From positions 8,526,001-8,590,000 of the forward strand of contig CM055907.1 of assembly GCA_029582155.1 (NCBI GenBank): a stretch of DNA of 64,000 bases, given 5' to 3'. This stretch comes from Panopea generosa. Lineage: Eukaryota; Mollusca; Bivalvia; Adapedonta; Hiatellidae. The position numbers and the translations under genes are program-made. This document shows positions 1 through 38,015 of this stretch, one piece after another. Position 1 is the stretch's first letter. The number at the start of each line of letters is the position of its first letter. The notes below the pieces were generated by a model. The model was not told where the DNA came from. It did not search any database and saw only the letters and a list, made by a program, of their open reading frames with translations.

Positions 1-3000
1 AATCAATGCTGAGTAAGTGGGTTGGGAGTTGTGTTGGAACATTTGCTCTATATTGGGTAAGTTGCTCAGTAAGTGTAGTGGAATATTTGCTTTATATTGG
101 GTAAATGGGTCGGGAATTGTGTCGGAACATTTGCTCTATGTTGGATAATTGTGTCGGGAGTTGTAGTGCAACATTTAATCAATGAAGAGTACGTGAGTTG
201 AGAATTGTGTTAGAACATTTGCTCTATATTGGGTAAGTGTGTCGGGAGTTGTGGTAGCACATTTAATCAATGCAGAGTAAGTGGGTTGGGAGTTGTGTTG
301 GAACATTTGCTCTATATTGGGTAAGAGTGTCGAGAGTTGTGGTGGCACATTTAATCAATACAGAGTAAGTGGGTTGAGAATTGTGTTAGAACATTTGCTC
401 TATATTGGGTCAGTGTGTCGGGAGTTGTGGTCGCACATTTGATCAATGCAGAGTAAGTGGGTTGGGAGTTGTGTTGGAACATTTGATCAATGCTGAGTAA
501 GTGAGTTGGGAGTTGTGGTGGAACATTTGCACTATATTGGGTAAGTGTGTTTGGAGTTGTGTTGGCACATTTAATCAATGCAGAGTAAGTAAGTTGGAAG
601 TTGTGTAAGAACATTGCTCTATAATGGGTAAATGGGTCGGGCGTTGTGGTGGCACAATTAATCAATGCAGTGTAAGTGGGTTGGGAGATGTGGAGGAGTA
701 TTTGCTCTAAATTGGGTAAGTGGGTCGGGAGTTGTGGTGGCAAATTTTATCAATGCTGAGTAAGTGGGTTGGAAGTTGTGTTGGAACGTTTGCTCTATAT
801 TGGTAAGTGGATCGGGAGTTGTGGTGGCACATTTAATCAATGCAGAGTAAGTGGGTTGGTAGTTGTGTTGGAACATTTGCTCTATATTGTGTAAGTGTGT
901 CTGGAGTTGTGGTGGCACATTTAATCAATGCAGAGTAAGTTGGTTTAGAGTTGTGTTGGAACATTTGTTCTATATTGGGTAAGTGTGTCGGTAGTTGTGG
1001 TGGCACATTAAATCAATGCAGAGTAAGTTGGTTGGGAGTTGTGTTAGAACATTGCCCTATATTGGGTAAGTGGGTTGGGAGTTGTTGAGGAGCATTTGCT
1101 CTATATTGGGTAAGTGGGTTGGGAGTTGTGGTGGCACATTTAATCAATTCAGAGTATGTGGGTTGGGAGTTGTGTTGGTACATTTGCTCCATGTTGTGAG
1201 TGTCGGGAGTTGTGGTGGCACATTTAATCTATGCAGAGTAGGTGGGTTGAGAGTTGTGTTGAAACATTGCTCTAAACTGAATAGGTGGGTCGGGAGTTGT
1301 GGTGGCACATTTAATCAATGCAGAATAAGTGGGTTGGAAGTTGAGGTGGAACATTTGCTCTAAAGTTGGTAAGTGGGTCGGGAGTTGTGGTGGAACATTT
1401 CCTCTATACTGGGTTAGAAATTCGGGAGTTGAGATGGCACATTTAATCAATGCAGAGTAAGTGGGTTGGGAGTTGTGGTGAAACATTGCTCTTTTTTGGG
1501 TAAATGGGTCGGGAGTTATGGTGTAATATTTGCTCTATATTGGGTAAGTGTGTCGGGAGTTGTGGTGGCACATTTAATTAATGCAGAGTAAGTGGGTTGG
1601 GAGTTGTGTTGGAATATTGCTCTATATTGGGTAAGTGTGTCGGGAGTTGTGGTGTCACATTTAATCGATGCTGAGTAAGTGGATTGGGAGTTGTGTTGGA
1701 ACATTTGCTCTATATTGGGTAAGTTGGTCAGGAAGTGTGGTGGAATATTTGCTTCATATTGGGTTAATGGGTCGGGAATTGTGTCGGAACATTTGCTCTA
1801 TGTTGGGTAAGTGTGTCGGGAGGTGTGGTGAAACATTTTCTCTATGTTGGATAAGAGTGTCGGGAGTTGTAGTGCAACATTTAATCAATGAAGAGTACGT
1901 GAGTTGAGAATTGTGTTACAACATTTGCTCTATATTGGGTAAGTGTGTCGGGAGTTGTGGTGGCACATTTAATCAATGCAGAGTAAGTGGGTTGGGAGTT
2001 GTGTTGGAATATTGCTCTATATTGGTTAAGTGTGTCAGGAGTTGTGGTGGCACATTTATTCAATGCAGAGTAAGTTGGTTGGAAGTTGTGTTGGAACATT
2101 GCTCTATATTGGGTAAGTGTGTCGGGAGTTGTGGTGCCACATTTAAACAATGCATAGTAAGTGGGTTGGGAGTTGTGTTGGAACATTGCTGTATAATGGG
2201 TAAGTGTGTCGGGATTTGTGGTGGCACATTTAATCAATGCAGAGTAAGTGGGTTGGGAGTTGTGTTTGAATATTGCTCTATATTGGGTAAGTGTATCTGG
2301 AGTTGTGGTGGCACATTTAATCAATGCAGAGTAATTGGGTTGGAATTTGTGTTGGAATATTGCTCTATATTGTGCTGGTGTGAGCATTTACTCCATATTG
2401 GGTTAGTGTGTTTGGAGTTTTGGTGGAACAATTAAGCAATGCAAAGTAAGTGGGTTGTGAGTTGTGGTTGAGCATTTGCTCTATATTGTGTAAGTGTGTC
2501 GGGAGTTGTGTTGGCACATTTAATCAATGCAGAGTGAATGGGTTGGGAGTTGTGTTGGAACATTTGCTCTATATTGGGTTAGTGTGTCGGGAGTTGTGGT
2601 GGAACATTTGATCAATGCTGAGTAAGTGGGTTGAGAGTTGTGGTGGAACATTTGCTCTATATTGGGTAAGTGTGTCGGGATTGGTGGTGGCCCATTTGAT
2701 CAATGCAGAGTAAGTGGGTTGGGAGTTGTGTTGGAACATTTGCTCTATACTGGGTAAGTGTGTCGGGAGTTGTGGTGGCACATTTAATCAATGCTGAGTA
2801 AGTGGGTTGAGGGTTGCGGAGGAGCATTTGCTCTATATTGGGTAAGTGGATCGGGAGTTGTGGTGGCAAATTTAATCAATGCAGAGTAAATGGGTTGGGA
2901 GTTGTGGTGGAACATTGCTCTTTATTGGGTAAATGGGTCGGGAGTCGTGGTGGCAAATTTGATCAATGCTGAGTAAGTGGGTTGAGAGTTGTGGTGGAAT

Positions 3001-4190
3001 ATTTGCTCTATATTGGGTAAGTGGGCCGGGAGTTGTGGTGGCACATTTAATCAGTGCAGAGTAAGTGGGTTGAGAGGTGTGTTGGAACATTGCTTTATAT
3101 TGGGAAAGTGGGCCGGGAGTTGTGGTGGCACATTTAATCAGTGCAGAGTAAATGGGTTGAGAGTTGTGTTGGAACATTTGCTTTATATTGGGTTAGTGTG
3201 TCGGGAGTTATGACGGCACATTTAATCAATGCAGAGTAAATGGGTTGGGATTTGTGTTGGAACATTGCTCTATTTTGGGTTAGTGTTTCGGGAGTTGTGG
3301 TGGCACATTTATTCAATGCAGAGTAAGTGGGTTGGGAGTTGTGTTGGAACATTGCTCTATGTTGGGTAAATGTGTCGGGAGTTGTGGTGGCACATTTGAT
3401 CAAAGCTGGGTAAGTTGGTTGGGAGTTGTGTTGGAACATTGCTCTATATTGCGTAAGTGTGTCGGGAGTTGTGGTGGCACATTTAATCAATGCAGAGTAA
3501 GTGGGATGGGAGTTGTGTTGGAACATTGCTCTATATTAGGTTAGTGTGTCGGGAGTTGTGGTGGCACATTTAATCAATGCAGAGTAAGTGGTTTGAGAGT
3601 TTTGTTGGAACATTGCTCTATATTGGGTAATTGTGTCGGGTGTTGTGGTGGCACATTTAATCAATGCAGAGTAAGTGTGTTGATGTTTTGTTGGATCATT
3701 GCTCTATATTGGGTTAGTGTGTCGGGAGTTGTTGTGGCACATTTAATCAATGCAGAGTAAGTGGGTTGGGAGTTGTGTTGGAACATTGCTCTATATTGGG
3801 TAAGTGTGTCGGGAGTTGCGGTGGCACATTTTATCAATGCAGAGTAGTGGGTTGGGAGTTGTATTTGAACATTGCTCTATATTGGGTAAGTGTGTCTGGA
3901 GTTGTTGTGGCACATTTAATCAATGCAGATTAAGTGGGTTGGGAGTTGTGTTGGAACATTGCTCTATATTGGGTAATTGTGTCTGGAGTTGTGGTGGCAC
4001 ATTTAATCAATGCAGAATAATGGGGTTGAGAGTTGAATTGGAACATTTGCTCTATATTGGGTAAGTGTGTCGGGAGTTATGGTGGCACATTTAATCAATG
4101 CATAGTAAGTGGGTTGAGAGTTGTGTTGGAACATTGCTTATATTGGATAAGTGTGTTTGGAGTTGTGATGGCACATTTAATCTATGCAGA

Positions 4191-4490
4191 GTAAGTGGGT
4201 TGAAAGTTGTGTTGGAACATTGCTCTATATTGAATAAGTGTGTCTGGAGTTGTGGTGGCACATTTAATCAATGCAGAGTAAGTGGGTTGAGAGTTGTGTT
4301 GGAACATTGCTCTATAATGGGTAAGTGTGTTTGGAGTTGTGGTGGCACATTTAATCAATGCAGAGTAAGTGGGTTGAGAGTTGTGTTGGAACCTTGCTCT
4401 ATATTGGATAAGTGTGTCTGGAGTTGTGGTTGCACATTTAATCTATGCAGAGTAAGTGGGTTGAAAGTTGTGTTGGAACATTGCTCTATA
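4191..4490. repeat. Internal duplicate block, copy 1 (pairs with 5110-5409)
   Basis: About 300 bases here match 5110-5409 almost base for base, including private variants such as the GTGTCTGGAG forms and an AACCTTGCTC variant. Neighbouring units differ from each other much more, so the pair reflects a recent block duplication about 919 bp apart inside the array. Confidence 0.8.
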
Positions 4491-5109
4491 TTGGATAAGT
4501 GTGTCTGGAGTTGTGGTGGCACATTTAATCAGTGCAGAGTAAGTGGGTGGAGAGTTGTGTTGGAGCATTGCTCTATAGTGGATAAGTGTGTCGGGAGTTG
4601 TGGTGGCACATTTAATTGATGCATAGTAATTCGGTTGGAAGTTGTGTCGGAACATTTGCTCTATATTGGGTAAGTGGGTCGGGAGTTGTGTTGGATTATT
4701 GCTTTATATTTGGTAAGTGTGTCGGGAGTTGTGGTGGCACATTTAGTCAATGCAGAGTAAGTGGGTTGGGAGTTGTGTTGGAACATTTGCTCTTATTTGG
4801 GTAAGTGTGTCGAGAGTTGTGGTTGCACATTTAAACAATGCAGAGTAAGTTGTTTGGGAGTTGTGTCGGAACATTGCTCTATATATTGGGTAAGTGTGTC
4901 GGGAGTTGTGGTGGTACATTTAGTCAATGCAGAGTAAATGGGTTGTGAGTTGTGGTGGAGCATTTGCTCTGTATTGGGTAAGTGTGTCGGGAGTTGTGGT
5001 GGCAACTTTAATCAATGCAGAGTAAGTGGGTTGGGAGTTTTGTTGGAGCATTTGCTCTATATTGGGTAAGTGGGTGGGTAATTGTGGTGGCACATTTAAA
5101 CAATGCAGA

Positions 5110-5409
5110 GTAAGTGGGTTGAAAGTTGTGTTGGAACATTGCTCTATATTGAATAAGTGTGTCTGGAGTTGTGGTGGCACATTTAATCAATGCAGAGTAA
5201 GTGGGTTGAGAGTTGTGATGGAACATTGCTCTATAATGGGTAAGTGTGTTTGGAGTTGTGGTGGCACATTTAATCAATGCAGAGTAAGTGGGTTGAGAGT
5301 TGTGTTGGAACCTTGCTCTATATTGGATAAGTGTGTCTGGAGTTGTGGTTGCACATTTAATCTATGCAGAGTAAGTGGGTTGAAAGTTGTGTTGGAACAT
5401 TGCTCTATG
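5110..5409. repeat. Internal duplicate block, copy 2 (pairs with 4191-4490)
   Basis: Near-identical to 4191-4490, with the clearest difference a T to A in the GTGTTGGAACATT segment. It consists of about 3.5 dimers of the 87-bp array. Confidence 0.8.
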
Positions 5410-5635
5410 TTGCGTAAGTGGATCGGGAGTTGTGTTGGAACATTTGCTCTATATTTGGTTAGTGTGTCTGGAGTTTTAATGGCCAATTTAATCAATGCTG
5501 AGAATGTGGGTTGGGAGTTGTGTTGGGACATTGTTTATATTGGGTAAGTGTGTCGGGAGTTGTGTTGGCACATTTAATCAATACTGTGTTAGTGGTTTGG
5601 GAGTTGTGTTTGCAACATTTGCTCTATGTTGGGTT

Positions 5636-7860
5636 AGTGGGTTTAGAGGTTTGGTGGAACATTTTCTCTATGTTGGGTTAGTGGGTTTGGAGTTTTGGTG
5701 GAACATTTGTTCTTTGTTTGGTAAGTTGGTTGGGAGTTTTGATGGAACATTTGCTCTTTATTAGGGTAGTGGGTTGTGAGTTTTAGTGGAACATTTGCTC
5801 TAAGTTTGGTATGTGAGTTTGGAGTTGTGATGGAAAATTTGTTAATTGTTTGGTTAGTTGGTTGGAAGTTGTGGTAGAAATTTGTTCTGTGTAGGGTAAG
5901 TGGATAAAAAGTTTCAGTGGAGCATTTGCTCTTTGTTGGATAACTTTGGTCGGAGTTGAAGTAAATATTTGCACGTTGTTGAGTTAGTGGGTTGGGCGTT
6001 TTTGTGGAATATTTGCTCTTTGTTGGGTTAGTAGGTTTGGAGTTTTGGTTGAACATTTGCTCTATGTTGGTTGAGCGGGTTTTGAGTTGTGGTGGAACAT
6101 TTGTTCTTTGTTGGGTAAGTTGGTTGGGAGTTGTGGTGGAACATTTGTTCTGTGTTGGGTAAGTGAGTCGGGAGTTGTGGTGTAATATTTGTTCTTTGTT
6201 GGGTAAGAGAGTTGAGAGTTATGGTGAAACATTTGCTCTTTGATGTGTAAGTTGGTAAGGAGATGAGGTGGAATATTTGCTCCATGTTTGGTAAATGGTT
6301 GGTAGTTATAGTGAAACATTTGCTCTATTTTAGGTAAGTTGGAAGGGAGATGAAGTGGAATATTTGCTCTATGTTGGGTAAATGGTTGGGAGTTATATTG
6401 AAACATTTGCTCTATGTTGGGTAAGTTTGTAGGGAGATGAGGTGGAATGTTTGCTCTTTGTTGGGTAAATTGTTGGGAGTTATAGTGAAACATTGGCTCT
6501 CTGCTAAGTAAGTTGGTTTGGAGTTGTGATGGAACATTTACTATATGTTGGGTAAGTGGGTTGGGAGTTATAATGAAACATTTGCTCTTTGTTTGGTAAG
6601 TTGGTAGGGTGTTGAGGTGGAACATTTGCTCTATATTGGGTAAGTGGTTGGGAGTTATAGTGAAACATTTGCTCTTTAAATGGTAAGGTAAGTGGGTAGG
6701 GATTGTTTGGGTTAGTAGGTTTGGAGTTTTGGTGGAGCATTTGCTCTATGTTGGGTTAATGGGTTTGGAGTTGTGGTCGAACATTTGTACGTTGTTGGGT
6801 AAGTTGGTTGTGGTGGAACATTTGCTTTGTGTTCGGTAAGTGGGTTAGGAGTTGTGGTGGAACATTTGCTCTATGTTGGGTACATGGTTGGGAATTAAAT
6901 TTAAACATTTGCTTTATGTTTGGTAAGTAGGTAGAGCGTTGTGGTGGAAAAATTGCTCAGAGTTGGGCAAGTGGGTTGGGAGTTGTAGTGGAATATTTGC
7001 TCTTTGTTGGGAAAGTTGGTAGGGAGTTGAGGTGGAACATTTTCTCTATGTTGGGAAAATATTTGGGAGTTATATTTTATCGTTTGCTCTATGTTAGGTA
7101 AGTGGGTTGGGAGTTATGGTGGAACATTTGCTATTTGTTGGGTAAGTGGATTGGAGATTATAGTTAAACATTTGCTCTTTGTTGGGTTAGTGGGTTGTGG
7201 TTTTTAGTAGAACATTTGTTCTATATTGGCTAAGTTGGTTGGGAGTTGTGTGACGGACCATTTGTTCTATATTGGATTGGAAGGTTTAGAGTTATGATGT
7301 AACATTTGCTCTATGTTTGGAGTTATGGTGAAGCATTTGTTGTTGTGGTGGATAATTTGCTCTGAGTTAGGTAAGTTGGTTGGGAGTTGTGGTTGGATAT
7401 TTGCTCTATGTTTGGTTATTGGGTTCGGAGTTGAGATGAAACATTTGCTCTGTGTTGGGTTAGTGGCTGGGAGTTATAGTGAAACATTTGCTCTTGTTGG
7501 GTGAATGGTTGGGAGTTGTGCTGGAACATTTGCTCTATTTTGGGTAATTGGGTTGGGAGTTGACACGAAACATTTTCTCTTTGTTGGGTAAGTGGGTTGG
7601 GAGTTGTGATGGGACATTTGTTCTATGTTGGGTAAATGAGTTGGGAGTTATGGTGGAATATTTGATCTTTGTTGTGTAAATGGGTTGTGAGTTGTGGTGG
7701 GATATGTGTTCTTTGTTGGGTGAGTAAGTTGGAAGTTGTGTTGGAATATTTGATCTTTGTTGGGTAAATGAGTTGTGAGTTGTAATGTGACATTTGTTCT
7801 TTGTTGGGTAAATGAGTTCGGAGTTGAGGTAGAATATTTGATCTTTGTTGGATAAATGCT
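5636..7860. repeat. Minisatellite, single B-type monomer (about 44 bp)
   Basis: The array continues but the A monomer is gone. Units read roughly GGAACATTTGCTCTTTGTTGGG plus TAAGTGGGTTGGGAGTTGTG. Units are more diverged than on the left and have indels, so open frames are shorter. The array ends near 7860. Confidence 0.9.
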
Positions 7861-8821
7861 TGGTAGTTAGGATGGTTATTGATTACAGCAAAGTAAAACA
7901 TATTATAGATAAGATCATGGGATTGCTTGAACATATATGTGATGAACATGACTGCTGTTACTATTTGTATGGAAAATGATAAGAGCTAATAAATAGATGG
8001 ATTAATCCAAAGATACACAGGATCTCGTCACGACGTACTCTATTACTGGTTTTTGCTGTTATAGTATATAGTGGTTTATATATGCTAAATAGCAAATCAT
8101 GTTAGAACAACTTTAGCGTATCGAACTGTTTGGTTGATTTCAATGAAAGACAATAGTGTGGGAAACATGACCGCATCTCGTTTGTGAAAATCATGTATAT
8201 ATGTATAATATTCCGTTGACCCTCTTACTTAGAACTAGTAATTTTGACGAGCAGAATAAGATGAATATTAAAAACATAAAAGTTGATTCTTGTAAATCTA
8301 TAGGATTGATATGAATGTGGATGGATTCTTATGTCTTACTTAAGTAGTTGAATACATCAAACTTTTTATTTGTGTATTTGGTGATTACTAAATTTAACCG
8401 CTATTGTTTTTTTTTATAATACTATATATATGGTCTAACTAGATGATTAAATTTGATTAATAGACTTTAATTTATTTTATTTTACCTTGTGTAGTCATAT
8501 AATATAAGCCAATAACCTATCGTTAGTATAGACCTATCAGCTCATCAGGTCTTAAACACCACGGGCGCCATGCAACTTCAAGTTTTAAATTTGATGTGAA
8601 CATAAAAATCAATCAGTGCTAAATATACAATCGTCAAATAAGGGTGCGCTTAATTGGTCAAATGCTTTGGCTCTGGTCAATATGAACGCTATGTCATCGG
8701 AGCGCTTCTCATTTTGTTGAATGTAAGCCAAATAATATTAAAAAGACTATCGATCCACACGAGTTTTTAAAATCCTTATACAAATATATTGTTTGCTTAT
8801 TATATTCTTGTACATTTTCAG
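7861..8821. other. AT-rich upstream region, no gene seen
   Basis: This is the 5' flank of the NLR-like gene. I see no open frame or RNA gene. A pyrimidine-rich tract ending in AG at 8820-8821, 21 bases before the ATG, looks like a splice acceptor, so a non-coding first exon may lie in this stretch. I could not assign a promoter. Confidence 0.4.
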
Positions 8822-8842
8822 TTTATCTGACAGACACATACA

Positions 8843-9349
8843 ATGGCGACATTGGAAAAGAGCTTGAACGTTCCTGAATATAGACAATGGATGAAAGGGG
8901 GTCTTGTGTTGAAACATCTCCAAGCTGGAATAGCAGACTATCTAGATGATGAAGTGAGAACTCTGCATGGAACGATACTGAATACTGTTAAAGCAAGCCT
9001 ACCGGCGGGAGTAGCTGTGCAATGTGTTGCTTGTAACAACAATTTAGCTAGAAAGAAAAAATGGACATGTTCTAGTCATAATATATGTACAAATATAAGA
9101 GATGAATTAGAAATTCAACATGAAAAAGGACACGGAAAGCTTACCATGGGCAACACAGACGTCAGTAAATGGACTGACGCAAACAAACATTGGGAGATCG
9201 GAAAGTGTTACTGTTCCCCCGGGTATACAGACAAACAGACGGTCAAGGAAATAGACTGTTCAGGTCTGCTTGGTCTGATCAGTAATTGTAAAGTAATCAA
9301 ACAGAAATTCTCAAACACATTGACGCAGCCATACAATTTGTTTGAAGAG
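8843..9349 (+). CDS. NLR-like gene exon 1: CXorf38/DUF4559-like domain
   Basis: 169 codons from ATG 8843, ending in TTTGAAGAG before donor GTATGT. The protein starts with a helical segment containing PEYRQWMKGGLVLKHLQAGI, then a cysteine cluster (CVAC, TC, IC), then a GN...W...WEIGK...DKQ...D..GLL.LI..C pattern. From memory, the same order and spacing occurs in the vertebrate protein CXorf38 (DUF4559), whose biochemical role is not established. The ATG is the first in the exon and follows a likely acceptor at 8821. Confidence 0.8.
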
Positions 9350-9767
9350 GTATGTGCACTTATATATATATGTTTATAATATTTTATAAGAATGAAATTG
9401 AAGTACATGTATCATTTTTATTCAGTTGAACTGAATCAGCCAATCGAATGAGAGAATGGATAAATGTAACCAGCTCATCTACTGCCATCTGTGACGTGCA
9501 TGTATACCATCTTTTTTTATGTCGAAGAAACTGAAATTGATCATTTTATCGGACATTGACAAATATAAAATACCGATTTTGTTATACATGTAGTTTATAG
9601 TAATCATATTTTTCTTGTTTATAATACAAATCTATATCTAAAATTCACGACATTAAAATTTATATTGAAGTTTTCTTTTAGTTTAGTGATAAACTGTTAT
9701 TATTTTAAACATATTAAATGATGTCTAAATTAACAAAACTTAAACTTTGACTTCACATCATGACCAG

Positions 9768-9926
9768 GTTCGAGATATTCGTAACAAAAAGATTATGCAT
9801 TCTTCCGACCTTGCTCTTCGAAACACAGATCTGGACGAACTCGTCAAGAAATCGATGGATATACTGCAGGAACAAAGCAAGGTGCTGACCAACAATGCCA
9901 CACTTGCATCACTCGCCAATAAACAT
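9768..9926 (+). CDS. NLR-like gene exon 2: end of CXorf38-like domain, RNKKIMH motif
   Basis: 53 codons between acceptor CAG (9765-9767) and donor GTATGT, phase 0 on both sides. It begins VRDIRNKKIMHSSDLAL, matching the CXorf38 family segment where R-N-x-x-M-H-S-S follows the LI..C region of exon 1. The R-x5-H spacing also fits the active-site pattern of HEPN-fold ribonucleases (R-x4-6-H, often with N after R). The rest is helical. Confidence 0.8.
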
Positions 9927-10240
9927 GTATGTAAAATGTAAACAAATTGAGTTTTTCTCAAAATGACAGTTTGTTTAAAGATTTAATATATATTTGAACA
10001 TGAAGATTGTAGACATTTTTTAATACTTGGAAATTTCAAATCATGACCTACGTGCATATATGTTACTTAAATAATTTAAACATATGAAGTCTTACTTGCT
10101 GCGGACAGCAAGTTATGGCTTGGTTGCTACTATTATTCACTATGTATGTAACACAATATTATTTTCAAATACCGAAGAAACATATTACTATGCAGCTACA
10201 AAATATTAAGTTATGTAATTATTACGTTAATTATTTTCAG

Positions 10241-10306
10241 GATGAAAATCAGGAATTCTTGAAAAAAGCTTCGTATATGGATGATGCCGGCCGTAAAATT
10301 GGTGAA
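10241..10306 (+). CDS. NLR-like gene exon 3: short helical linker
   Basis: 22 codons (DENQEFLKKASYMDDAGRKIGE) between TTATTTTCAG and GTATGT, phase 0 both sides. Its support is the strong splice signals, matching phase, and hydrophilic helical composition like exons 4 and 5. Confidence 0.7.
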
Positions 10307-11003
10307 GTATGTAAGACGTCTGGTTATTTAGAATTATATATTAAAGCAGGAAATAATGTAACAGTTCCTTGCAAATCAAGCAGCATATATATTACGCACC
10401 TCATATACATCTTAAATTTCTATATGGTTGTAAAATTGTATTCGATTTAGGTTCAAGGATTTATTCGAGTCGACATAGATGAAAATGGTTTTAATTTAAT
10501 ACACAGTGATTTAGTGATTTAAAATTAAGAAAACATTCTTAAAAACAGGAGACGTAACATCCACTATGACAGCAATGACATAAAATAGGTATAATAAAGG
10601 AATTTCAAATATACAAAAAACTAACCACATAGATTATCGCTTAGGAAACTGGAGATTAAATTTGGTTTGAAGTTATTTATAATTTATTCGAAAGAAGACG
10701 ATTGGATCTATTCGATAATAATAGTAAACGTTAAAGCTAGATTATATAACGTTGCGTTATAAACCAATTTAAAATCTGCCGAAGGACCAATACGTTTTTG
10801 TTTATTCCGAGATATCTGGAATTTTTGATTTAACAAATATAATTTTATGTGGAAAAAATGAAAATGATTACTTTATCTATGCATTTTATAGTATACATAT
10901 TTGATATTTTGTATGAATATTTTTATATATTAAGTTTATTCATGTATGTTTTGTTTTCAATTTATCTTTGAAAATTAAGTGCAAGTTTATCTTATTAACC
11001 CAG

Positions 11004-11255
11004 ATACACAGATCCGATTTCACGATAACGCTGGAAGACGAGCTTGAGGTACTTGGTGACAAAGTAGAATCGCTTAAAAAGAAACAGGTTCAACACGAAG
11101 AACAGGTCACCCAGCTGATCAATGACCACAAAGCAGCCATCGGAAAGAAAATGACGAAGTTAAATAACAAAAATAAAGATCAAAAGAAACGAATTCTAGG
11201 TTTGGAAACAAAGATAAAATTGGAAATAGACTCTAAACAAAAAGAAATGAAACAA
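11004..11255 (+). CDS. NLR-like gene exon 4: lysine-rich coiled coil
   Basis: 84 codons between acceptor CAG (11001-11003) and donor GTAAGT, phase 0 both sides. The segment LEDELEVLGDKVESLKKKQV and what follows have heptad spacing of L/V/I with K/E/Q elsewhere, typical of a coiled coil. It probably mediates oligomerisation between the N-terminal effector-like domain and the NACHT. Confidence 0.75.
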
Positions 11256-11605
11256 GTAAGTTAAAACATATAACAAAAGTGCCCGAGAGGCGGCCATACA
11301 AGAACCACCTGAAAATGAATCAGTTTTGTTATTTATCTACATTTTTATAAGACTTTAGATTGTTTATACCTTTAAGCATTTTGTTAATGAATTAAATAGA
11401 AGCGTAACCAAATTAAAGAATTGAGATAAGATAAAATAAAAACCAACAACAATAACAACACCCGTTTTATATTACCAATGCTTCATAGCTATATCCTTAA
11501 AACATAAAACAATCAATGATATATTGAGACATTAACTAACTTCTCCGTATTGTGGTAAATTATTATTAATATATATTAAAGTTGTATAAATTATCTATAT
11601 TTTAG

Positions 11606-11930
11606 ATAAATGAAATACTTAAAACAATAAATAGCAGCATAACCGTGAATAATGACACGACAGATAACTTACGATCAGAAATGGAAAAAGTAAGGAAAAA
11701 AAGTGAAGAAATATCAGCATGTATTGAAAGTCACCGACAATGGACAGAATCGGAAATAAAGACGATAAATACACGACTGCAGGAGATTGATACAAACGTA
11801 CAGAAACACGACATACACCTGCAGGATATTGACAGAAATCTTCATGATCAAGGCATACACATGCAGGATATTGACAGAAACTTACACGACGTTCATGAGA
11901 AAATACGTTCAAGAAACGTAAAAGAAAAAG
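11606..11930 (+). CDS. NLR-like gene exon 5: coiled coil with 14-residue repeats
   Basis: 108 codons plus one base, from acceptor TTTTAG to donor G|GTAATT (phase 1). The C-terminal part repeats HDIHLQDIDRNL / QGIHMQDIDRNL, a 14-residue (two-heptad) unit. Phase 1 matches the start of the NACHT exon at 14992. Confidence 0.75.
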
Positions 11931-12101
11931 GTAATTGAAATAAAAATGATTAATTAAGGGACGAATGTTTCTTTCTGTTACATTTATGTTGTAAGCTCAT
12001 AAATATTTATGTTGCCCTGGAACCGGTTTCCCTAAACATCATAACACATATTTAGACTAGTGTTCAATGTTAATAAAATTATAGCATTTCAAATATTTTA
12101 G

Positions 12102-12155
12102 TTGAGGAAAATCAAACTGCTTGATCATGAGAAAATAATTTTAAGAGTCTTAAAG
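12102..12155 (+). other. Candidate 54-bp cassette exon containing a stop
   Basis: AAATATTTTAG precedes and AAAG|GTAATTG follows; the donor context copies that of exon 5. Read in phase 1 from exon 5 it gives V-E-E-N-Q-T-A then TGA at 12122-12124. It could be a decayed duplicate exon end or an isoform-terminating cassette. There is no transcript evidence. Confidence 0.25.
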
Positions 12156-12331
12156 GTAATTGAGATAAATGTTGTCAATAAAGAGACGAATACTTCTTTC
12201 TGTTGCATTGATATTGTAAGCTCACATTGATTTTATTGTTCAGGGACAGGTTTTACTAAACATTTAAACCGATGCCTTTTCATCTCAAATAAAATGACCA
12301 GTACAGCCTACATGCATTTTAAATATTTTAG

Positions 12332-12343
12332 TTGAGAAAAAGT
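12332..12343 (+). other. Candidate 12-bp in-frame microexon
   Basis: The same AAATATTTTAG acceptor context as at 12101 is followed by TTGAGAAAAAGT and a consensus donor GTAAGT. Twelve bases preserve phase 1 and would insert four residues between the coiled coil and NACHT. It is speculative. Confidence 0.2.
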
Positions 12344-12399
12344 GTAAGTTAAGATATTTAGTGAAACTGGGGCATGTTGTGTTACATTTACAGGTCTCT

Positions 12400-13490
12400 G
12401 TTTCAAATGCGTGTTCGTGACATTTGCACATACGTCATCATCATTTATTTGAGTTTACTACTAATAGTTCAATTTTGATTGTTTGTTTCGTTTTTGAAAA
12501 TATAAAATACACAATCTATGTTGAATTTTTAATCAGTGGCAAAAGGCGTTAAATTAGAACGTAAACACAATATTCAGACATAATACTCTTGCATATCCAC
12601 ACACACTTCGAAATTGCATAACAGGTGTTTTAACACATCATCTTATCTGATATATGGCTTTGACTCCGTGTTGTTATTATTTATGATTTCTTGGAGTCAT
12701 GGAGACCATTCAGTGCTGTTTTATAATATAATACCGTTGAGGCCGGGGGTAAGGAACGTGAGGGGTGTTGAATGTTTCTTTACCTATTGCGAACATAATC
12801 CAACCGAGTCTGCTATTTTCTTCTTTTGGATACGTTCGAATACTAATATACAGTTATACCATGCACACTTTTTGGAAATGAACATCCTAAATCCGGCATT
12901 ATTTAGGATTCTGTTTGAGCTATAATCCTAAGATTTTGTCAGAAAAATGTTAATATTTCAATAATTTCATTATTTCATTATTATAACCGTGTAATATTAA
13001 TGCACTGCAATGTTAAAACATAACACAAGTTTATAATGATATGCATATGTAAATTAAACAGAAGATCAATCTGCTGCAGGTACCTTACAAGCGAATATTT
13101 AAAGAATAACAATAGCGCTTTGCTCTCTGTAAATAGCTTCTATTTCCTCCCAGTACCATTATCGTTCTACACGGGACAAGTGAAGGGGGCAGGTTACACA
13201 AATGTAATTTTTCCCATAGTCTGGCCAAGAGTGGTAGTCAGACAATGGCATATCGTAATTTAATCTAATAATCAATCATTAAGAAATCGCATTCTGAATA
13301 TCTGCAAATAATGACATAACTATTGATATTATTCAGAGTTTGACACATTTGATAATTAAACATATTGATATGACTCAGTAAACATTTATAACATATACAA
13401 CTCTCTAATCACTCAGGATAGCATAACCGTTATAATGTAACTCACTTATCATTGATGAAAAGCATCCGATACTTGTAACATCATTATAAT
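12400..13490. other. Intron sequence, no gene supported
   Basis: Open frames at 12614-12925 and 13036-13263 lack splice-phase fit or recognisable motifs, and I treat them as chance. The block near 12740-12850 has higher GC than its surroundings and could be an old interspersed repeat. Confidence 0.4.
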
Positions 13491-13494
13491 TCCG

Positions 13495-13985
13495 CATGTT
13501 ACTCATTATAATACAACCCACTCTTGTTACTCATTACAATACAACCCACTTTTACTCATTGTAATACAACCCACTTGTTACTCATTACAATACAACCCAC
13601 TTGTTACTCATTTTAATACAACCCACTTGTTACTCATTACTCATTACAATACAACCCACTTGTTACTCATTATAATACAATCCATTTGTTACTCATTATA
13701 ATACAACCAACTTGTTACTCATTACAATACAACCCACGTGTTACTCATTACAATACAACCAACTTGTTACTCATTACAATACAACCCACGTGTTGCTCAT
13801 TACAATACAACCCACCTATTACTCATTACAATACAACCCACTTGTTACTCATTATAATACAACCCACTTGTTACTCATTACAATACAACCTACTTGTTAC
13901 TCATTATAATACAATCCAATTATTACACATTACAATACAACCCTCTTGTTACGCATTAAAATAAAACCCACTTGTTACTCACCTT
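13495..13985. repeat. 26-bp minisatellite
   Basis: About 18 units of TTACTCATTACAATACAACC plus CACTTG, including one partial insertion near 13630-13645. It lies in the long intron before the NACHT exon. Open frames across it are repeat artefacts. Confidence 0.95.
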
Positions 13986-14991
13986 GGTTACATCATTATG
14001 ATATCACTCATTTGTCATTTATGATAATACAACGTACGTGTTACATATAAAATTTACTATCTTATATATCCCTTGTATACCTAACACCGCGATATAACTA
14101 TTACCGCCAATGCCCGTATAATAACAATCTAGGAAGACATGTGCAAACTTACGTTAGCGTCGGCATTTGTTTGCATTTCGTATCGTCAACCGTTTTTTAC
14201 TCGGCACACTTAAGCAACCTTATTACTGTTTAGTATTGATGCCATATTTACATAGTTGAACATTTGTTAGACTCGCAGTATTAGGTATGACCAGTATATA
14301 TATATTTAACATACCGGTTTATGGAAAATTATGCTTTCTTACAGTCTTTTCAAATGATGATTCTACGACCATTGTAACATTCATTCTGTGGCGTCAGTAG
14401 ATATGCAACACATTAACTAAACGAGTGCTACAAATAGAAATGATAATGTTTTTGTTATGCACGGTATTAAAAAAGAATTAGAATTGTCTTCTTAGAAAAT
14501 TCCATTTTAGTACGTTTCAAGAACCTATTACTTAAACCAGTCTATATAATTACTTCTAAATTATAAATTGGTAATTACTACATATTTTATTTTTTATAGT
14601 ACAATGAAATATTAGAATCAGTAGGAAACAATAACTTTGCAATACATGATTTTTAACTCATTGTTTTCCAATCAAAATCACATCCTCTCCTTCATAATTT
14701 TAAACTTCAACTGGCCAACTGTTTCTTAAAATATTTGAACTGTACTGATTGACAAATCAGAATACAGTGCATATAGATACAATGATTAATAGTCACACGC
14801 GCTACTGACTGTTATTGTACCTTTAAAATCAGTACAAAAGATTATTTCTCCATTCGGAATGGAACATTTACACTCCATTCTACAAATCTAGTTAAAATAT
14901 AATTTAACATGAGCTAATGACCTGTACTTTCTTCATCTTACAAATTGTTTTGTTATACTGCACTGTAAACACTTCATGTGTTTTATAACAG
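13986..14991. other. Intron sequence upstream of NACHT exon
   Basis: I see no exon or element I can name. The stretch ends in the acceptor TTTTATAACAG at 14981-14991. Confidence 0.5.
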
Positions 14992-17774
14992 ATATGGAGT
15001 CTCTACAGCAATGTTTACTTGAGATGTACGAGGACCTTACAGCTATTGTACCACTGACGCCCTTCTCTAGAGATGAAGGCCTTTCCATCCAGCAACTGTA
15101 CACACCTACCATCGTGGAAGAAGATTTATCAAAATGGAGAAAAGCTGCAGATAGTTCAAGCACTAAACCGGTTATTTCATATCATGACTTATTGTATCAA
15201 GGTAATAAACTTGCAAAACGTGTCTTTATGATAGGTTCTGCAGGGCGGGGTAAGAGTACATACTGTTTACGTATGTTAGATGATTGGAGAAATGGTATAA
15301 GGAAACGTAATACAAAGAAAGGTCTGATTACTAATTCTAAAATACAACATTCTGACGGCGAAGGAGAGTTGTCTGATGGTGAGAGAGATATGTTGGATTT
15401 CGACTACGTATTCTTTGTGTCATTACGACACGTTGACACATCTAGGATATCTCTTGTTGACATGATTTGCAACGACCTGTTATCTGAGCATTCAAAAAAG
15501 CGGGATACGGCTGAGCATGTCTTGGAAACTATGCCACAGCGATGCCTTGTAATTGTGGATGGGTTAGATGAATGGTCACCGACTTCAGAAGTTTGCTCGA
15601 AGTTATGTGATCCGGGTTTACCAAATAGGGATATGTTGAACGGGTGTCCAACTTTCATTACTTCTAGACCTTTTAAAATAGAGAATTTGAGAACAAAATT
15701 AAGTGTGTCTGATAAACTGGTCAATATTAAAGGTATAGCTGATGTTGAAAAACTAATTGAAAATGTACTCGTCTATCACTGCGATGTACCACACAAATCA
15801 CAAGAGCTCACGCAAAAAACAAAAGAGATTCTAAAAATGTCTAAAAAGGAAAGACTTTCAGATTTACTTCAGATCCCACTTATGGCTACATATTTGGTTT
15901 CTGTGTGGCACGAGTACGGCACGCTTGACGACTCACTGGTACGTTTGTTTCTCAGCATTATAAGGTGCCTTCTATGTAAAATACCTGACACAGACCTACC
16001 AGATAATGCATCGTCTGACATGTTAGGTCAATTGAAGTTAGACGGTTCACTTTCAAAGTGTATCCAACTGTTGAAAACTTTGGGTCAGGTGGCATTTAAA
16101 TCATTGACTGAAAACAATGCAACATTAGTGTTTTCAAAAAAGGAGTTCAAAGCCAAAATGTGTAAGCAACAAGTTAAATTGAGTTTGGAAATCGGACTAA
16201 TTTGTAAATCCAAGGTTCCAGGAAGGAAAAGTCCGAAGTTCTTCAGTGTTAATTTTTTTCATAAAACAATGCAAGAATTCCTAGCATCAGTCTGGCTAGT
16301 GTCTGATAGTAAATCATTTGAAACATTTTTAAATCAATGTTCAGATTCAAGAACAATTTTTTCATTTTCAAATATTATTTTGTTTACATCTGGTCTGGAT
16401 TACGTTTTAGGAAAGAGATTAACTTTGCACATCAATGATGTCATACATCATTTATATTACGAGGCTAAGTGGCATATGAATCGTGCATTCCCAAATATAT
16501 ATGGCTTGCAATGTGAGTGCTACCAAGAATGTGTTCTGAATGCTGCAGAAGAATTACATTCTTACCCAGTTGCATATGCTATAATCGACTATACAAACCT
16601 GAATACTTCGGCAGAAATTCTTAAACTAAATCAGTCGTATATGAGAGATGTGGTCGTAGAATTATCTAATAGTTATATGAAAAAATTTGATCTAGGTCTA
16701 TTAAGTAAGCTGAAGGCATTAAAACGTCTTATAATCAGCGGTTCTAATGAATACTGCTTTTCAAGTCCACTGTTGGACACAGCGATGATAAATACCAGTC
16801 CAGTAAAATTACATTTATCGAACAATCACAATCTGGAACGACTGAAACTAGAGCATATGGATATACATAATATCTATCTTCCGTTAGAAAGTATCGAGAA
16901 GATTAGCATCTTTGATGTATCTGTGATGTCAGAATGTGAGTTATTTCAACAGCTATATCAGTGTCAACAACTTACAAGGCTCGTAGTAGTATTAAAAGAA
17001 AGACGTTCAGAAGAATCTGTCTCTGTGATGTCGGATATACAATTAGTAGATTTAAACTTATCCAACAGTCGACGACTGGCGTATTTGAATTTGACGAATA
17101 TGCATATACAAAGTACCAATTTTCCGTTAGAAAGTATCGAGGACATTACCCTCCGTGATGTATCTGTGATGTCAGAATGTGAGTTATTTCAACAGCTATA
17201 TCAGTGTCAACAACTGACATCACTCGAAGTAAAATTAGAAGAAAGACATTCAGAAGAATCTGTCTCTGTGATGTCGGATATACAATTAGTAGATTTAAAC
17301 TTATCCAACAGTCGACGACTGAAGTCATTGACTTTGACAAATATGCATATACAAAGTACCCATCTTCCGTTAGAAAGTATCGAGAACATTACCCTCTGTG
17401 ATGTATCGGTGACGTCAGAATGTGAGTTATTTCAACAGCTATGTCAGTGTCAACAACTTACAAAGCTCGTAGTAAAATTAAAAGAAAGACGTTCAGAAGA
17501 ATCTGTCTCTGTGATGTCGGATATACAATTAGTAGATTTAAACTTATCCAACAGTCGACGACTGACATCATTGATTTTGTGGAATATGCATATACAAAGT
17601 ACCCATCTTCCGTTAGAAAGTATCGAGGAAATTATACTCCGTGATGTATCTGTGACGTCAATCTATGAGTTATATGAACATCTAGATCAGTGTCAACAAC
17701 TGAAATGGTCCACAGTAACATTAAAAAATAGACGTTCAGAAGAATATGACTCTGAGATGTGGGATAAACAATAA
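14992..17774 (+). CDS. NLR-like gene exon 6: NACHT ATPase plus first LRRs, to first stop
   Basis: The exon starts with AT completing a GAT codon, then ATGGAGTCT at 14994; that ATG could also start an intronless form. Walker A is GSAGRGKST (15234-15260). Walker B is LVIVDGLDEW (from 15543), followed by a sensor-like TFITSRP. These mark a NACHT domain of the STAND NTPase class, which binds ATP to switch between monomer and oligomer. Winged-helix and helical regions follow (the KTMQEFLASVWL segment is typical of animal NLRs). LRRs begin near 16800 and become 81-residue repeats from 16921. Each unit appears to hold three 27-residue LRRs. The frame stops at TAA 17772-17774, where sister units have TTA. 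Confidence 0.85.
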
Positions 17775-18864
17775 GTAGATTTAAACTTATCCAACAGTCG
17801 ACGAATGACGTCATTGTTTTTGACGAATATGCATATACAAAGTATCCATCTGCCGTTAGATAGTATCGAGGAAATTTTCCTCCGTGATGTATCGGTGACG
17901 TCAGAATGTGAGTTATTTCAATATCTATCTCAGTATCAACAACTGACAAGACTCGTAGTAGAATTAAAAGAAAGACGTTCAGAAGAATCTGTCTCTGTGA
18001 TGTCGGATATAAAATTAGTAGATTTAAACTTAGCCAACAGTCGACGACTGGCGTATTTGAACTTGAAGAATATAAATATACAAAATATCCATCTTCCGTT
18101 AGAAAGTATCGAGGACATTACCCTCCGTGATGTATCGGTGATGTCAGAATGTGAGTTATTTCAACAGCTATGTCAGTGTCAACAACTGACAAGGCTCGTA
18201 GTAGTATTAAAAGAAAGACGTTCAGAAGAATCTGTCTCTGTGATGTCGGATATACAATTAGTAGATTTAAACTCATCCAACAGTCGACGACTGGCGTATT
18301 TGAAGTTGAAGAATATGAATATACAAAATATCCATCTTTCGTTAGAAAGTATCGAGGACATTATCCTCCGTGATGTATCGGTGACGTCAGAATGCGAGTT
18401 ATTTCAAAATCTATCTCAGTGTCAACAACTGACAATACTCGTAGTAGAATTAAAAGAAATACATTCAGAAGAATCTGTTTCTGTGATGTCGGATATAAAA
18501 TTAGTAGATTTACATTTATCCAACAATTTACAACTGACGTATTTGAAGTTGAAGAATATGAATATACAAAATATCCATCTTCCGTTAGAACGATTACGGC
18601 ACATAAGCCTCCTTGATGTATGGGTGACGTCAGAATGTGAGTTATTTCATCAACTGTCCAAGTCTCAGCAACTAAATGTACTCAAAGTAGAATTTAAAGA
18701 AATACACTCAGAAAAACCTATCTCTGTGATAGCAGGTACAAGACCAGTTAATGTATATTTATCCAACAACCAGAAACTGGACATATTGCGCATGAAGAAT
18801 ATGAATATATACACTATCGATATATCGTCACGTGTTCTTCAGACACTTGAACTCACTAGTATTA
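16921..18864 (+). repeat. Eight in-register 243-bp coding LRR units
   Basis: The motif (C/T)(T/G)GTGA(T/C)GTCAGAATG or a close variant recurs at 16921, 17164, 17407, 17650, 17893, 18136, 18379 and 18622, exactly 243 bases apart with no indel. Units share long identical blocks such as GTAGATTTAAACTTATCCAA. The last unit is the most diverged. The exact period and high identity point to recent unequal crossing-over or gene conversion. Confidence 0.95.
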
Positions 18865-19055
18865 CTGGGCTAACATCTTGTAATTTATCTTAGAGTAGGT
18901 TTACAAACGAGATAGTATTACATGGTGTTAAGATGACTCCGTCTGGTTGGCAAACATTCGTAGACTTTGTTGCTAAGAACGCCCGAGTGTGTTTAATGAG
19001 CACCAATATTACTACCTCTTTGTCTCATGTACCCTCCAGATTTAGGATTACTTAA
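17775..19055 (+). pseudogene. NLR-like gene, LRR continuation and C-terminus after in-frame stops
   Basis: The same frame as 14992-17774 stays open to TAG 18891-18893, then again to TAA 19053-19055. The part after 17774 encodes four more complete 81-residue LRR units and a diverged final unit. The segment after 18893 reads NEIVLHGVKMTPSGWQTFVD, like the C-terminal cap I recall from mollusc NLR-like proteins. The single-base nature of both stops, with no frameshift over 4 kb, indicates recent inactivation, a segregating null allele, or base errors in the assembly. Translation could also begin again at ATG 17805, giving an LRR-only fragment. Confidence 0.7.
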
Positions 19056-19610
19056 TCAATTTATCGAAACAAACATATAAGGGTACTTGCTATAGTTTCG
19101 ATTTTGTCTTTCAATGCAATTCCGTATCTAAAAGTTTTTGTTGATATTCATATTAAGATCAGGTGCTCAGATTTAGGCGTTCAGATTTTTATAGGACCCC
19201 CAAAGGACAAAGAAAATTACTTTTTTGACAAAACTGAAATCGTTATTGTTCCATCTAGCTTATTGTTTAAAATAATATTTTAATAGAGTTTATTAAATAC
19301 ATATGAGAGAAAAGTACAAAAAGACACATTCACATTGGAAACTTATCTAGTTTGCACTTGGATTCATACTAGGATTTTGTTACGAATGTAACGTGCACCG
19401 AGCGGCGTGTACACACAACTACTAATAAATATGATATAAAAGAATTTTCCTTGGACTACTTGCCGTTTGATTTAAGATAAATGGTGAAATAATTTTCCTC
19501 AAGCTACTTTGCTTTATAATTGGATGACAAATGATTGAACAAATGATTCGTGTTTAAAAAAGAATAATCACGTACAATTAACTTATACATATAAAACCAA
19601 ATTAAAAAAA
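19056..19610. other. Intergenic, no gene seen
   Basis: This is AT-rich sequence after the NLR-like gene. An AATAAA near 19420 is a possible polyadenylation signal but is far from the stop and weakly supported. Confidence 0.4.
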
Positions 19611-35877: not shown

Positions 35878-37400
35878 ATAACAAACTTCACACCTTTGCC
35901 ACACAGATAGAACAGTTTTTGGTTGAAAATGAAAGCATATTTGGAAATGAAGTAATTGCTGTAACAGAAAATACAAATTAATGTAACGATATAACAACCA
36001 TAAAAGAGAAGTTTGATATTGTAGTTGATGTAATCAAGAAAAATGAGTGTAACGATATAACAACCATAAAAGAGAAGTTGGATATTGTCAGTGTTGTCAC
36101 AGAGGAAAATGAGTGTAACGATATACCAACCATAAAAGAGCGGTTGGATATTGCACGTGTTGTCACAGAGAAAAATGAGTGTAACGATATAACAACCATA
36201 AAAGAGAAGTTGGATATTGCAAGTACTGTTACAGAGGAAAATGAGTGTAACGATATAACAACCATAAAAGAGAAGTTGGATATTGCAAGTATTGTTACAG
36301 AGGAAAATGAGTGTAACGATATAACAACCATAAAAGAGAAGTTATATATTGTAAGTGCTGTCATAGAGGAAAATGTGTGTAACAATATAACAACCATAAA
36401 AGAGAAGTTGGATATTGTAAGTGCTGTCACAGAGGATAATGAGTGTAACGATATAACAACCATAAAAGAGAAGTTGGATAGTGTAAGTGTTGTAACAGAA
36501 GAAAATGAGTGAAACGATAAAACAACCAAAATAGAGAAGTTGGATATTGCAAATGCTGTCACAGAGGAAAATGATTGTAACGATAAAACAACCATAAAAG
36601 AGAAGTTGGATATTGTAAGTGCTGTCACAGAGGAAAATGGGTGTAACGATATAACAACCATAAAAGAGAAGTTGGATATTGTAAGTGCTGTCATAGAGGA
36701 AAATGTGTGTAACGATATAACAACCATAAAAGAGAAGTTGGATATTGTAAGTGTAATAACAGAGGAAAATGAGTGTAATGATATAACAACCATTAAAGAG
36801 AAGTTGGATATTGTAAGTGCTGTCATAGAGGAAAATGAGTGTAACGATATAACAACGATGTATATCGTAAGTGATGTTACAGAGGAAAATGAGTGTTATG
36901 ATATAACAACCATAAAAGAGAAGATGGATATTGTAATTGCTGTCACAGATGAAAATTAGTGTAACGGTGTAACAACCATAAAAGAGAAGTTGGATATTGT
37001 AATTGCTGTCACAGAGCAAATTGAGTGTAACGATATAATAACCATAAAAGAGAAGTTGGATATTGTAAGTGCTGTCACAGAACAAAATGAGTGTAACGAT
37101 ATGACAACCATAAAAGAGAAGTTGGAAATTGTAAGTGCTGTCACAGAAGAAAATGAGTGTAACGCTATAACAACCATATAAGATAAGTTGGATATTGTAA
37201 ATGCTGTCACAGAGAAAAATGAGTGTAACGATATAACAAACATAAAAGAGAGGTTGGATATTGTAAGTGATGTCACCAAGGAAAACGAACGTGATGATAC
37301 AACAACCGTAAATGAGAAATCGGATAATGTTAGTACTGTCACAGAGGAAAATAAATGTTATGATGCATCAACCGTGAAAAAGAAGACGGGTTTTTAAAGG
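35878..37400 (+). pseudogene. Decayed coding region with 66-bp (22-codon) repeat
   Basis: From about 35893 one frame reads FATQIEQFLVENESIFGNEV, then IAVTENTN and a TAA at 35980-35982 where later units have GAG. It then continues through about 21 units of 66 bp encoding NDITTIKEKLDIVSAVTEEN plus EC. The frame is kept across the array but is broken by single-base stops (for example TGA near 36510, TAG near 36957, TAA near 37180). The units are charged and amphipathic, so the ancestral product was probably helical. The first lines before the array look like the seed of the repeat. I do not recognise the family. The minus-strand frames are shadows. Confidence 0.5.
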
Positions 37401-38015
37401 CTATCACAGAGGAAAACGAACTTGATGATACAACAACCATAAAAGAAAAGTCGCATAATGTAATACTGTCACAGAGGAAAACTAATGTAACAATACAACA
37501 ACCATAAAAGAGAAGTATATCACAGAGGTAAACTAAACTGCTAGAAACACAATGGAAAGTGAACTTGTAGATATAAGTGATAGTAAGAAACACTTAAATC
37601 CAAAGCGAATGCCTACAAGAAACAAAAAATACATTTCAAATTCTAATTAAGTGTACCAACCGGTACATTCCACATAATGAAAGTGATGCTGTAACATTTG
37701 CCCCGAACAAAAACACAAGGATAGCAGGATTGCAAGGCAGAGTAGCAAAGTTCACACCGGTACCTTACAATCAGTTATGTATACACCATGTTCACTAGTA
37801 AATGTGATGTATTGCATAAACAAATCGTGTTGTTATATCTTGTCTATATATGGTGCAGGTGGCAACAGCGCAGCATATTAGTTTTGATCAGAAATCAAAC
37901 ATTTCTATGTTTGAAGTTTGGAATCTTCAGTTGAACACATAATTCTATATTCAGGTGTATACCCTGGGCAAAGCAGAAATCTGATCACGGCCACACGTAT
38001 GTATACAATTCTGAA

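Follow-up and report, generated by a model that had tools for sequence, protein, structure and literature searches.

A predicted receptor gene of Panopea generosa joining a CXorf38-type HEPN domain to NACHT and leucine-rich repeats, its sister copy, and its genome-wide family

Results

Gene model of the locus

The window, that is, the whole stretch of 64,000 nucleotides that was analysed (C14:8526001-8590000 of the 1.47-Gb genome), contains a gene of six exons on the plus strand (8843-17774). According to the splice model, the exons join to one open product of 1363 residues. GT/AG ends were found throughout, and the entry phases of exons 1 to 6 are 0, 0, 0, 0, 0, and 1. The features of the locus are given below in the order of their position.

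8843..9349, plus strand: exon 1, with the ATG at 8843 and the bulk of the DUF4559/CXorf38-type HEPN domain
Within exon 1, plus strand: a C/H-rich insert (C61, C64, C76, C82, H93) and the acidic residue D138 (9254-9256)
9768..9926, plus strand: exon 2, the remainder (end) of the HEPN domain
9780..9800, plus strand: RNKKIMH, an R-x5-H putative RNase active site (residues 174-180; R174, N175, H180)
10241..10306, plus strand: exon 3, a linker ahead of the coiled-coil region, gap-free in comparison with the sister copy L009
11004..11255, plus strand: exon 4, a charged helical region
11606..11930, plus strand: exon 5, a coiled coil with 42-nt internal repeats; donor AAG/GTAATT
14992..17774, plus strand: exon 6, with the NACHT NTPase domain, a helical region, and the start of the LRR array; terminates at the TAA at 17772-17774
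15234..15260, plus strand: Walker A, GSAGRGKST, in the exon 6 sequence
15540..15575, plus strand: Walker B, RCLVIVDGLDEW, in the exon 6 sequence
16878..18821, plus strand: eight tandem LRR units of 243 nt (81 residues) each, with variable positions on the exposed strand faces
17772..17774, plus strand: TAA stop in the frame of LRR unit 4; in the sister, exon 6 stays open up to the C-terminal end
17775..19052, plus strand: LRR frame beyond the first stop, with the rest of unit 4, units 5-8, a TAG at 18891-18893, and a tail resembling the C-terminal end of the sister

The motifs GSAGRGKST and RCLVIVDGLDEW correspond to Walker A and Walker B. The NACHT domain of exon 6 matched its Pfam profile with 52.3 bits (cut-off 26.7). 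The short exons between the two large domains were evaluated by a codon score, for which non-coding sequence gave a mean of −0.17 bits per codon (sd 0.095, maximum 0.17). Exons 3, 4, and 5 reached 0.28, 0.29, and 0.14 bits per codon, respectively. They are thus coding on average, exon 5 only just, since its score is below the non-coding maximum and lies just inside the non-coding extreme. A hydrophobic period of 3.5 residues was detected in exon 5 (p 0.0005). Exon 4 does not display this period (p 0.19), but one of 3.6 residues (p 0.0005). The earlier note had described coiled coil, NACHT, and LRR exons in matching phase downstream of the first two exons, which agrees with the phases of the six exons, the NACHT match, and the eight LRR units.

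Two repeats accompany the gene. A minisatellite of 7.8 kb (6-7855; 44/87-bp units, strong GC skew) ends approximately 1 kb 5' of the gene start. Intron 5 holds a 26-bp tandem repeat (13497-13981), which is apparently longer in the sister intron, as judged from the pattern of BLAST matches.

The N-terminal domain

Exons 1 and 2, which had been read as a CXorf38/DUF4559-type domain from the sequence alone, matched DUF4559 (PF15112, CXorf38 family) with 94.0 bits (E=1.6e-26, cut-off 27), in support of that reading. Exon 1 alone reached 70.2 bits and exon 2 alone 16.9 bits, which is under the cut-off of 27. With the whole product, the match extends over residues 9-331 (profile positions 3-300 of 305) at 83.9 bits, so that the extension is without gain in score. 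A comparison with HEPN profiles had been suggested as well and turned out differently: HEPN_Swt1, the sole HEPN-named Pfam match, covers residues 128-190 weakly with 18.1 bits, and no HEPN-named profile exceeded its cut-off (27.5 bits for HEPN_Swt1). The domain is assigned to HEPN because DUF4559 is the CXorf38 family, which was placed in the HEPN superfamily by Anantharaman et al. (2013; PMC3710099).

A sequence search of exons 1-2 against the PDB yielded nothing (best E 0.37). The AlphaFold model of exon 1 alone had a mean pLDDT of 30.7 and was unusable, and it was not taken to a fold search. Scans for viral-contig relatives with exon 1 and the NACHT part found none, the PADLOC and NCBIfam scans gave nothing meaningful, and the tRNA and Rfam scans had no result.

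Candidate residues of a Zn ribbon (C61, C64, C76, C82, and H93) are present within the HEPN domain. The expected ribbon cysteines contribute unevenly to the DUF4559 score: C82A lowered it clearly (3.9 bits), the double exchange C61A+C64A by only 1.4 bits, and C76A by 0.1 bits. H93A cost 5.5 bits, and no loss was observed for H79A, C122A, and C124A.

The R-x5-H motif

The bare R-x4-6-H pattern was rejected as evidence for an active site. When the 222 residues were shuffled 5000 times, 53% of the shuffled sequences contained it (two or more copies in 16%), and a second instance, RDELEIQH (R86, H93), is found in the same domain as a decoy. Because the pattern as such is at chance level, the evidence lies in the position of the motif on conserved columns of the family. 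Exchange for alanine lowered the DUF4559 score by 4.5 bits for R174, 3.5 bits for N175, 5.6 bits for H180, and 4.8 bits for D138. The HEPN_Swt1 match was absent from the results (limit E 1) after R174A, N175A, or D138A and decreased from 18.1 to 13.2 bits after H180A. In the decoy, R86 costs 1.1 bits, H93 is as conserved in DUF4559 as H180 (−5.5 bits), and neither residue alters the HEPN_Swt1 match. Among ten control residues, nine shifted the DUF4559 score by −1.2 to +2.3 bits, and W117, which is itself conserved, by −5.3 bits; the HEPN_Swt1 match stayed between 16.1 and 18.9 bits in all ten. Two further features of HEPN RNases are present on conserved columns, namely the polar residue following the arginine (N175) and the upstream acid (D138).

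The genome contains 85 DUF4559 exon matches; the genome-wide counts of the family are lower bounds, and their units are exons, not genes. For the motif, 24 distinct loci were examined (the window gene, L002, L005, L007, and L009-L028), whereas L001, L003, L004, L006, and L008 were left out because they repeat loci of this set. Exon 2 was recovered in 19 of the 24 loci, in 18 by search and in L018 (via L032) by eye among open frames, and it was not recovered in L007, L017, L022, L026, and L027. Some of the E-values are weak (L013 0.14, L014 0.036, L015 0.062, L019 0.0024). All 19 recovered exons carry the motif, with N following the arginine in 18 and H in one (L028). The spacing is Rx4H in 16 exons and Rx5H in three, which belong to the window clade (window, L009, and L021). 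The profile used for this search contains the motif, and independent support therefore comes from the fixed position of the acceptor: an AG lies exactly 12 nt 5' of the arginine codon in 19 of 19 exons, while 27% of random places offer an in-phase AG at one or another of six such positions. When the motif was left out of the seed, no exon 2s beyond the three closest were found, which makes this control uninformative for the distant copies.

The comparison of the translated exons thus displays an R-N...H site conserved across the recovered paralogues. The conservation of the predicted HEPN part is also seen in the dN/dS of exons 1-2 versus L021, which is 0.25 for the window gene and 0.22 for L009. 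The proposal of the earlier note that RNKKIMH fits the R-x4-6-H pattern of HEPN RNases stands on the conserved columns and the 19 exons, the pattern by itself being at chance level.

The connection of HEPN and NACHT exons

The donor of exon 5 ranks 10th among 623 GT sites by U1 pairing, and the pyrimidine content of the exon 6 acceptor equals that of the best of the other acceptors. Both splice sites and their phase are kept in L009, where all six exons are present in order. Compared with the window, exon 5 of L009 lacks 42 nt and has 9 additional nt near the donor, and both lengths are multiples of three. These observations argue against two adjoining genes, i.e., a stand-alone CXorf38-like HEPN/coiled-coil gene ending just past exon 5 and a separate NACHT-LRR gene. 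Such a division would accord with the length of intron 5 (3 kb) and with the coverage of the DUF4559 profile, since exons 1-5 already account for positions 3-300 of 305. Unspliced, exon 5 would reach a stop two codons further on (11936-11938), followed by an AATAAA at 11939 and three more AATAAA by 12288, and an in-frame ATG is located 2 nt past the exon 6 acceptor in the window as well as in L009.

The paralogues speak for a single gene. A NACHT exon was in hand for seven of them (L009, L011, L012, L023, L025, L035, and L036). In all except L009, the first Leu codon is preceded at a distance of exactly 2 nt by a phase-1 AG, and an in-frame stop is found 7-41 codons upstream with no Met between. 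In these six, the conserved stretch of the NACHT exon is consequently not preceded by a start codon, a later Met being possible. L009, the seventh, shares the in-frame ATG of the window.

Genome-wide, 51 NACHT matches were detected. A DUF4559 exon is located upstream on the same strand within 30 kb in 37 of them (within 15 kb in 30), downstream on the same strand in three, and on the opposite strand in none; 14 matches have no upstream DUF4559 within 30 kb. Viewed from the other side, 38 of the 85 DUF4559 exon matches are followed by NACHT within 30 kb downstream. At 21 loci (window gene and L009-L028), NACHT was present on the same strand in six, in eight after six loci had been extended, and never on the opposite strand. 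PF18738, the DZIP3-type HEPN family, has 126 matches in the genome, but it precedes NACHT by no more than 30 kb in only two of the 51 cases.

Proteins with both domains are, moreover, already in print (PMC3710099, PMC8298618). Judged by the Pfam matches, the same-strand pairing, and the six NACHT exons that lack such a start codon, the fusion of HEPN and NACHT proposed in the earlier note is very likely real and widespread. Two separate genes appear highly improbable, and the predicted order of HEPN, coiled coil, NACHT, and LRR, taken by itself, is close to certain.

For the remaining 47 DUF4559 exon matches, no NACHT match follows within 30 kb; they may represent solo or differently fused HEPN proteins. 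Instead of NACHT, DUF4559 is followed in L013, L014, L015, and L017 by open stretches that are alike by eye and comprise 162-211 codons. In L028 (448-8373), an open frame encoding nSTAND3 (95 bits) and ankyrin repeats lies downstream of a DUF4559 exon (57 bits), both on one strand. Here, the same HEPN family is apparently joined to a different STAND NTPase.

State of the window copy in comparison with the sister copy

The whole locus is duplicated in inverted orientation 187 kb away. The duplicate (C14:8708700-8723143; L009, L029) corresponds to 8601-19300 of the window, and the sister gene is located on the minus strand (C14:8711829-8722161). The identity amounts to 94-99% in exon and intron stretches and to approximately 88% in the LRR region. 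In the window, the frame of exon 6 stops at residues 926, 1299, and 1353 (counted from 0), and a coding-like tail in the same frame follows the TAG past unit 8. The sister exon 6 is open for 1341 codons up to the corresponding tail, which results in approximately 1767 residues together with exons 1-5. Exons and frames of the gene as first described hold up to the first stop, while the breaks of the LRR frame at 17772-17774 and 18891-18893 had been missed.

Between window and sister, exons 1-2 have a dN/dS of 0.95 with few changes, and pN exceeds pS in NACHT (0.049 vs. 0.032). Both values are compatible with relaxed constraint. Together with the two in-frame stops and the open frame of the sister, they indicate that the window copy is probably a truncated or decaying one, provided that the stops are neither allelic nor errors of the assembly. 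The stretch 17775..19052 is probably not translated from this copy. With HEPN, NACHT, and about 3.7 LRR units kept, the window copy could represent a shortened receptor or a copy in decay. The stronger form of the latter, a pseudogene without functional product that leaves only the sister and the other paralogues at work, has a considerable chance of being correct, though somewhat less than even. The TAA in unit 4, the second stop (TAG) at an open sister frame, the dN/dS near 1, and the divergence of unit 4, which is the highest among units 1-7 in amino acids, are in line with it. However, splice sites and frames of exons 1-6 are intact up to the first stop, the shortened product would retain HEPN, NACHT, and nearly four LRR units, and the stops could be of allelic or technical origin (assembly errors).

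The LRR array

In the eight units of 81 residues, conserved L-xx-L-x-L blocks alternate with variable positions. None of the Pfam LRR families matched exon 6, and a sequence search of this exon against the PDB had no match at E 0.01. The AlphaFold model of exon 6 alone is of low confidence (mean pLDDT 41.4; ten-residue blocks of the LRR 36-72, with poor values outside the LRR) and places strands at unit positions 8-12, 34-38, and 69-73, i.e., at the leucine blocks. Foldseek retrieved mostly LRR proteins with this model (top matches including TLR2, NRC3, SHOC2, and NAIP2/NLRC4) with low TM-scores, which is weak support for an LRR fold.

The differences between the units are unevenly distributed. 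At 11 positions predicted to be exposed on the strands, 0.64-0.75 of the unit pairs differ, in comparison to 0.14-0.25 elsewhere (permutation p ~5e-5). When four positions of block c were added, the fraction was 0.51-0.61 (p up to 1e-4). Path-counted pN/pS was 1.2-1.5 at exposed positions and about 1 elsewhere; it was rejected as proof of positive selection, because pS is also higher at the exposed sites, which we attribute to codons with multiple hits. For this reason, pure synonymous differences and multi-nucleotide amino-acid changes were counted instead. In six units (all except 4 and 8), pure synonymous differences were equally rare at exposed positions and elsewhere (0.030 vs. 0.029), whereas multi-nucleotide changes amounted to 0.333 vs. 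0.018. With all eight units, the respective values were 0.026 vs. 0.042 and 0.435 vs. 0.071.

The exposed positions a, b, and d of the strands had been picked after inspection of the window alignment. The array of the sister (units 1-7) was therefore tested with positions fixed beforehand, a test that is not fully independent since both arrays share ancestry. Unit pairs of the sister differ in 0.606 of the cases at these positions and in 0.220 elsewhere (p 5e-5); pure synonymous differences were 0.000 vs. 0.008 and multi-nucleotide changes 0.303 vs. 0.036. In both arrays, amino-acid differences are thus concentrated on the predicted exposed face of the LRR units. The pattern looks like that of a diversified binding face and names no ligand; for an immune role, it is only indirect support.

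Discussion

The combination of DUF4559 and NACHT is not new. It is already catalogued, a fact missed by the earlier note, whose account of the architecture was otherwise borne out. According to the accessible sections of Anantharaman et al. (2013; PMC3710099), CXorf38 is labelled as an active member of the HEPN superfamily, fusions of CXorf38 with NACHT and DEATH occur in cephalochordates and cnidarians, and an RNA-degrading role in defence was proposed. The window gene has the Pfam family, the R-x4-6-H site, and the NACHT fusion in common with these proteins. The same sections list no mollusc for the CXorf38 family; the mollusc exons described here are Rx4H in 16 of 19 and Rx5H in the three of the window clade. 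In the clam Corbicula fluminea, DUF4559 was found in 45 of 99 NACHT ('NLRP') proteins (PMC8298618), the same combination as in the window gene. The available text of that study lists DUF4559 among the domains and connects it neither with HEPN or an active site nor with LRR diversification.

A different HEPN family is present in the DZIP3/hRUL138-like HEPN (PF18738)-NACHT-LRR proteins of pearl oyster and cnidarians (PMC9646362, PMC8260672), and a DZIP3-HEPN version is also mentioned in the literature on Aplysia. The pearl oyster proteins resemble the window gene in their N-terminal HEPN domain with R-x4-6-H, central NACHT, and C-terminal LRR; in the genome studied here, however, PF18738 precedes only the two NACHT matches mentioned above. 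HEPN RNases in immune proteins of bivalves are also covered in a study on TRADD-N domains (PMC8195603), and in the accessible portions of two further articles, CXorf38 appears only in tables (PMC8545590, PMC8145272).

The layout of NACHT and LRR is shared by the window gene and vertebrate NLRs (NLRP3, NLRC4/NAIP), to which the low-confidence model of exon 6 has weak structural matches, as to other LRR proteins. Vertebrate NLRs have CARD, pyrin, or BIR domains at their N-termini. In contrast, the predicted N-terminus of the window gene consists of a HEPN-type domain and a coiled coil. The present data add three points. Beside NACHT, DUF4559 is much more common in this genome than PF18738, the other HEPN family tested. 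The predicted site is retained even in distant paralogues, and a diversified sensor end is combined with a conserved effector end.

We propose that the locus encodes a receptor of the NLR kind with a CXorf38-type HEPN domain, coiled coil, NACHT, and LRR, which is part of a genome-wide family. The LRR fan would recognise a foreign or altered molecule, upon which the NACHT NTPase would switch and oligomerise. Coiled coil and NACHT ring may then bring the N-terminal HEPN domains together as dimers. In other HEPN RNases, the dimer is the active form. The composite R-x4-6-H sites could cut RNA without metal, and in that case the receptor would respond by cleaving RNA, viral or of the host, instead of signalling through a death fold. 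As a complete chain up to RNA cleavage, this proposal is in our opinion probable, by a modest measure.

The main rival accepts the same fusion protein with a HEPN domain that does not cut, but binds RNA or acts as an assembly or signalling module. HEPN domains without the conserved residues have been proposed to be binders (PMC3710099). The accessible part of the open-licence literature on DUF4559/CXorf38 yielded no RNase test of a DUF4559 protein, and the sole experimental mention in it is a Dictyostelium protein with B-box, FNIP, and DUF4559, which is connected to autophagy (PMC4554924). The domain described here has the arginine, the following polar residue, the histidine, and the upstream acid on conserved columns, and all 19 recovered exon 2s retain the motif, which speaks against a non-cutting role. 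We regard such a role as rather unlikely and favour the predicted RNase.

If the HEPN end cuts RNA, the sensing of pathogens would be joined directly to the destruction of RNA within one protein. Vertebrate NLRs, in contrast, recruit caspases through death-fold domains, and the animal NLRs would be placed beside bacterial HEPN-NTPase defence and RNase L. The intact sister gene L009 offers a testable protein.

A wider reading, which we put forward tentatively and consider somewhat less probable than its opposite, would join these observations. The predicted CXorf38-family HEPN RNase would be the standard output of NACHT receptors in this animal lineage (37 of 51 NACHT matches) and would have been recruited separately from the DZIP3-type HEPN of pearl oysters and cnidarians. 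The LRR arrays, near-uniform at silent sites, would have been diversified codon by codon on the ligand face. Activation of such an NLR would consist in RNA cleavage triggered by oligomerisation, in parallel to bacterial HEPN-STAND systems, and the effector is apparently also carried by another NTPase (L028, nSTAND3 with ankyrin).

Other features of the window

On the minus strand, an exon at 56041-56259 is similar to GABA-B receptor subunit 1 (PDB phmmer E=8.3e-10), and further exons are perhaps located at 54189-55399. An open stretch beside it (55109-55399) is alike by eye, without such a PDB match. None of the three stretches of the GABA-B-like region had a Pfam match at E up to 0.1. A tandem repeat with 66-bp units (23.6 copies, 35975-37516) is open over long distances on either strand, the longest frame comprising 341 codons on the minus strand. 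Another repeat with 108-bp units (19 copies, 51535-53576) coincides with a stretch of higher GC content (0.446 at 52001-54000).
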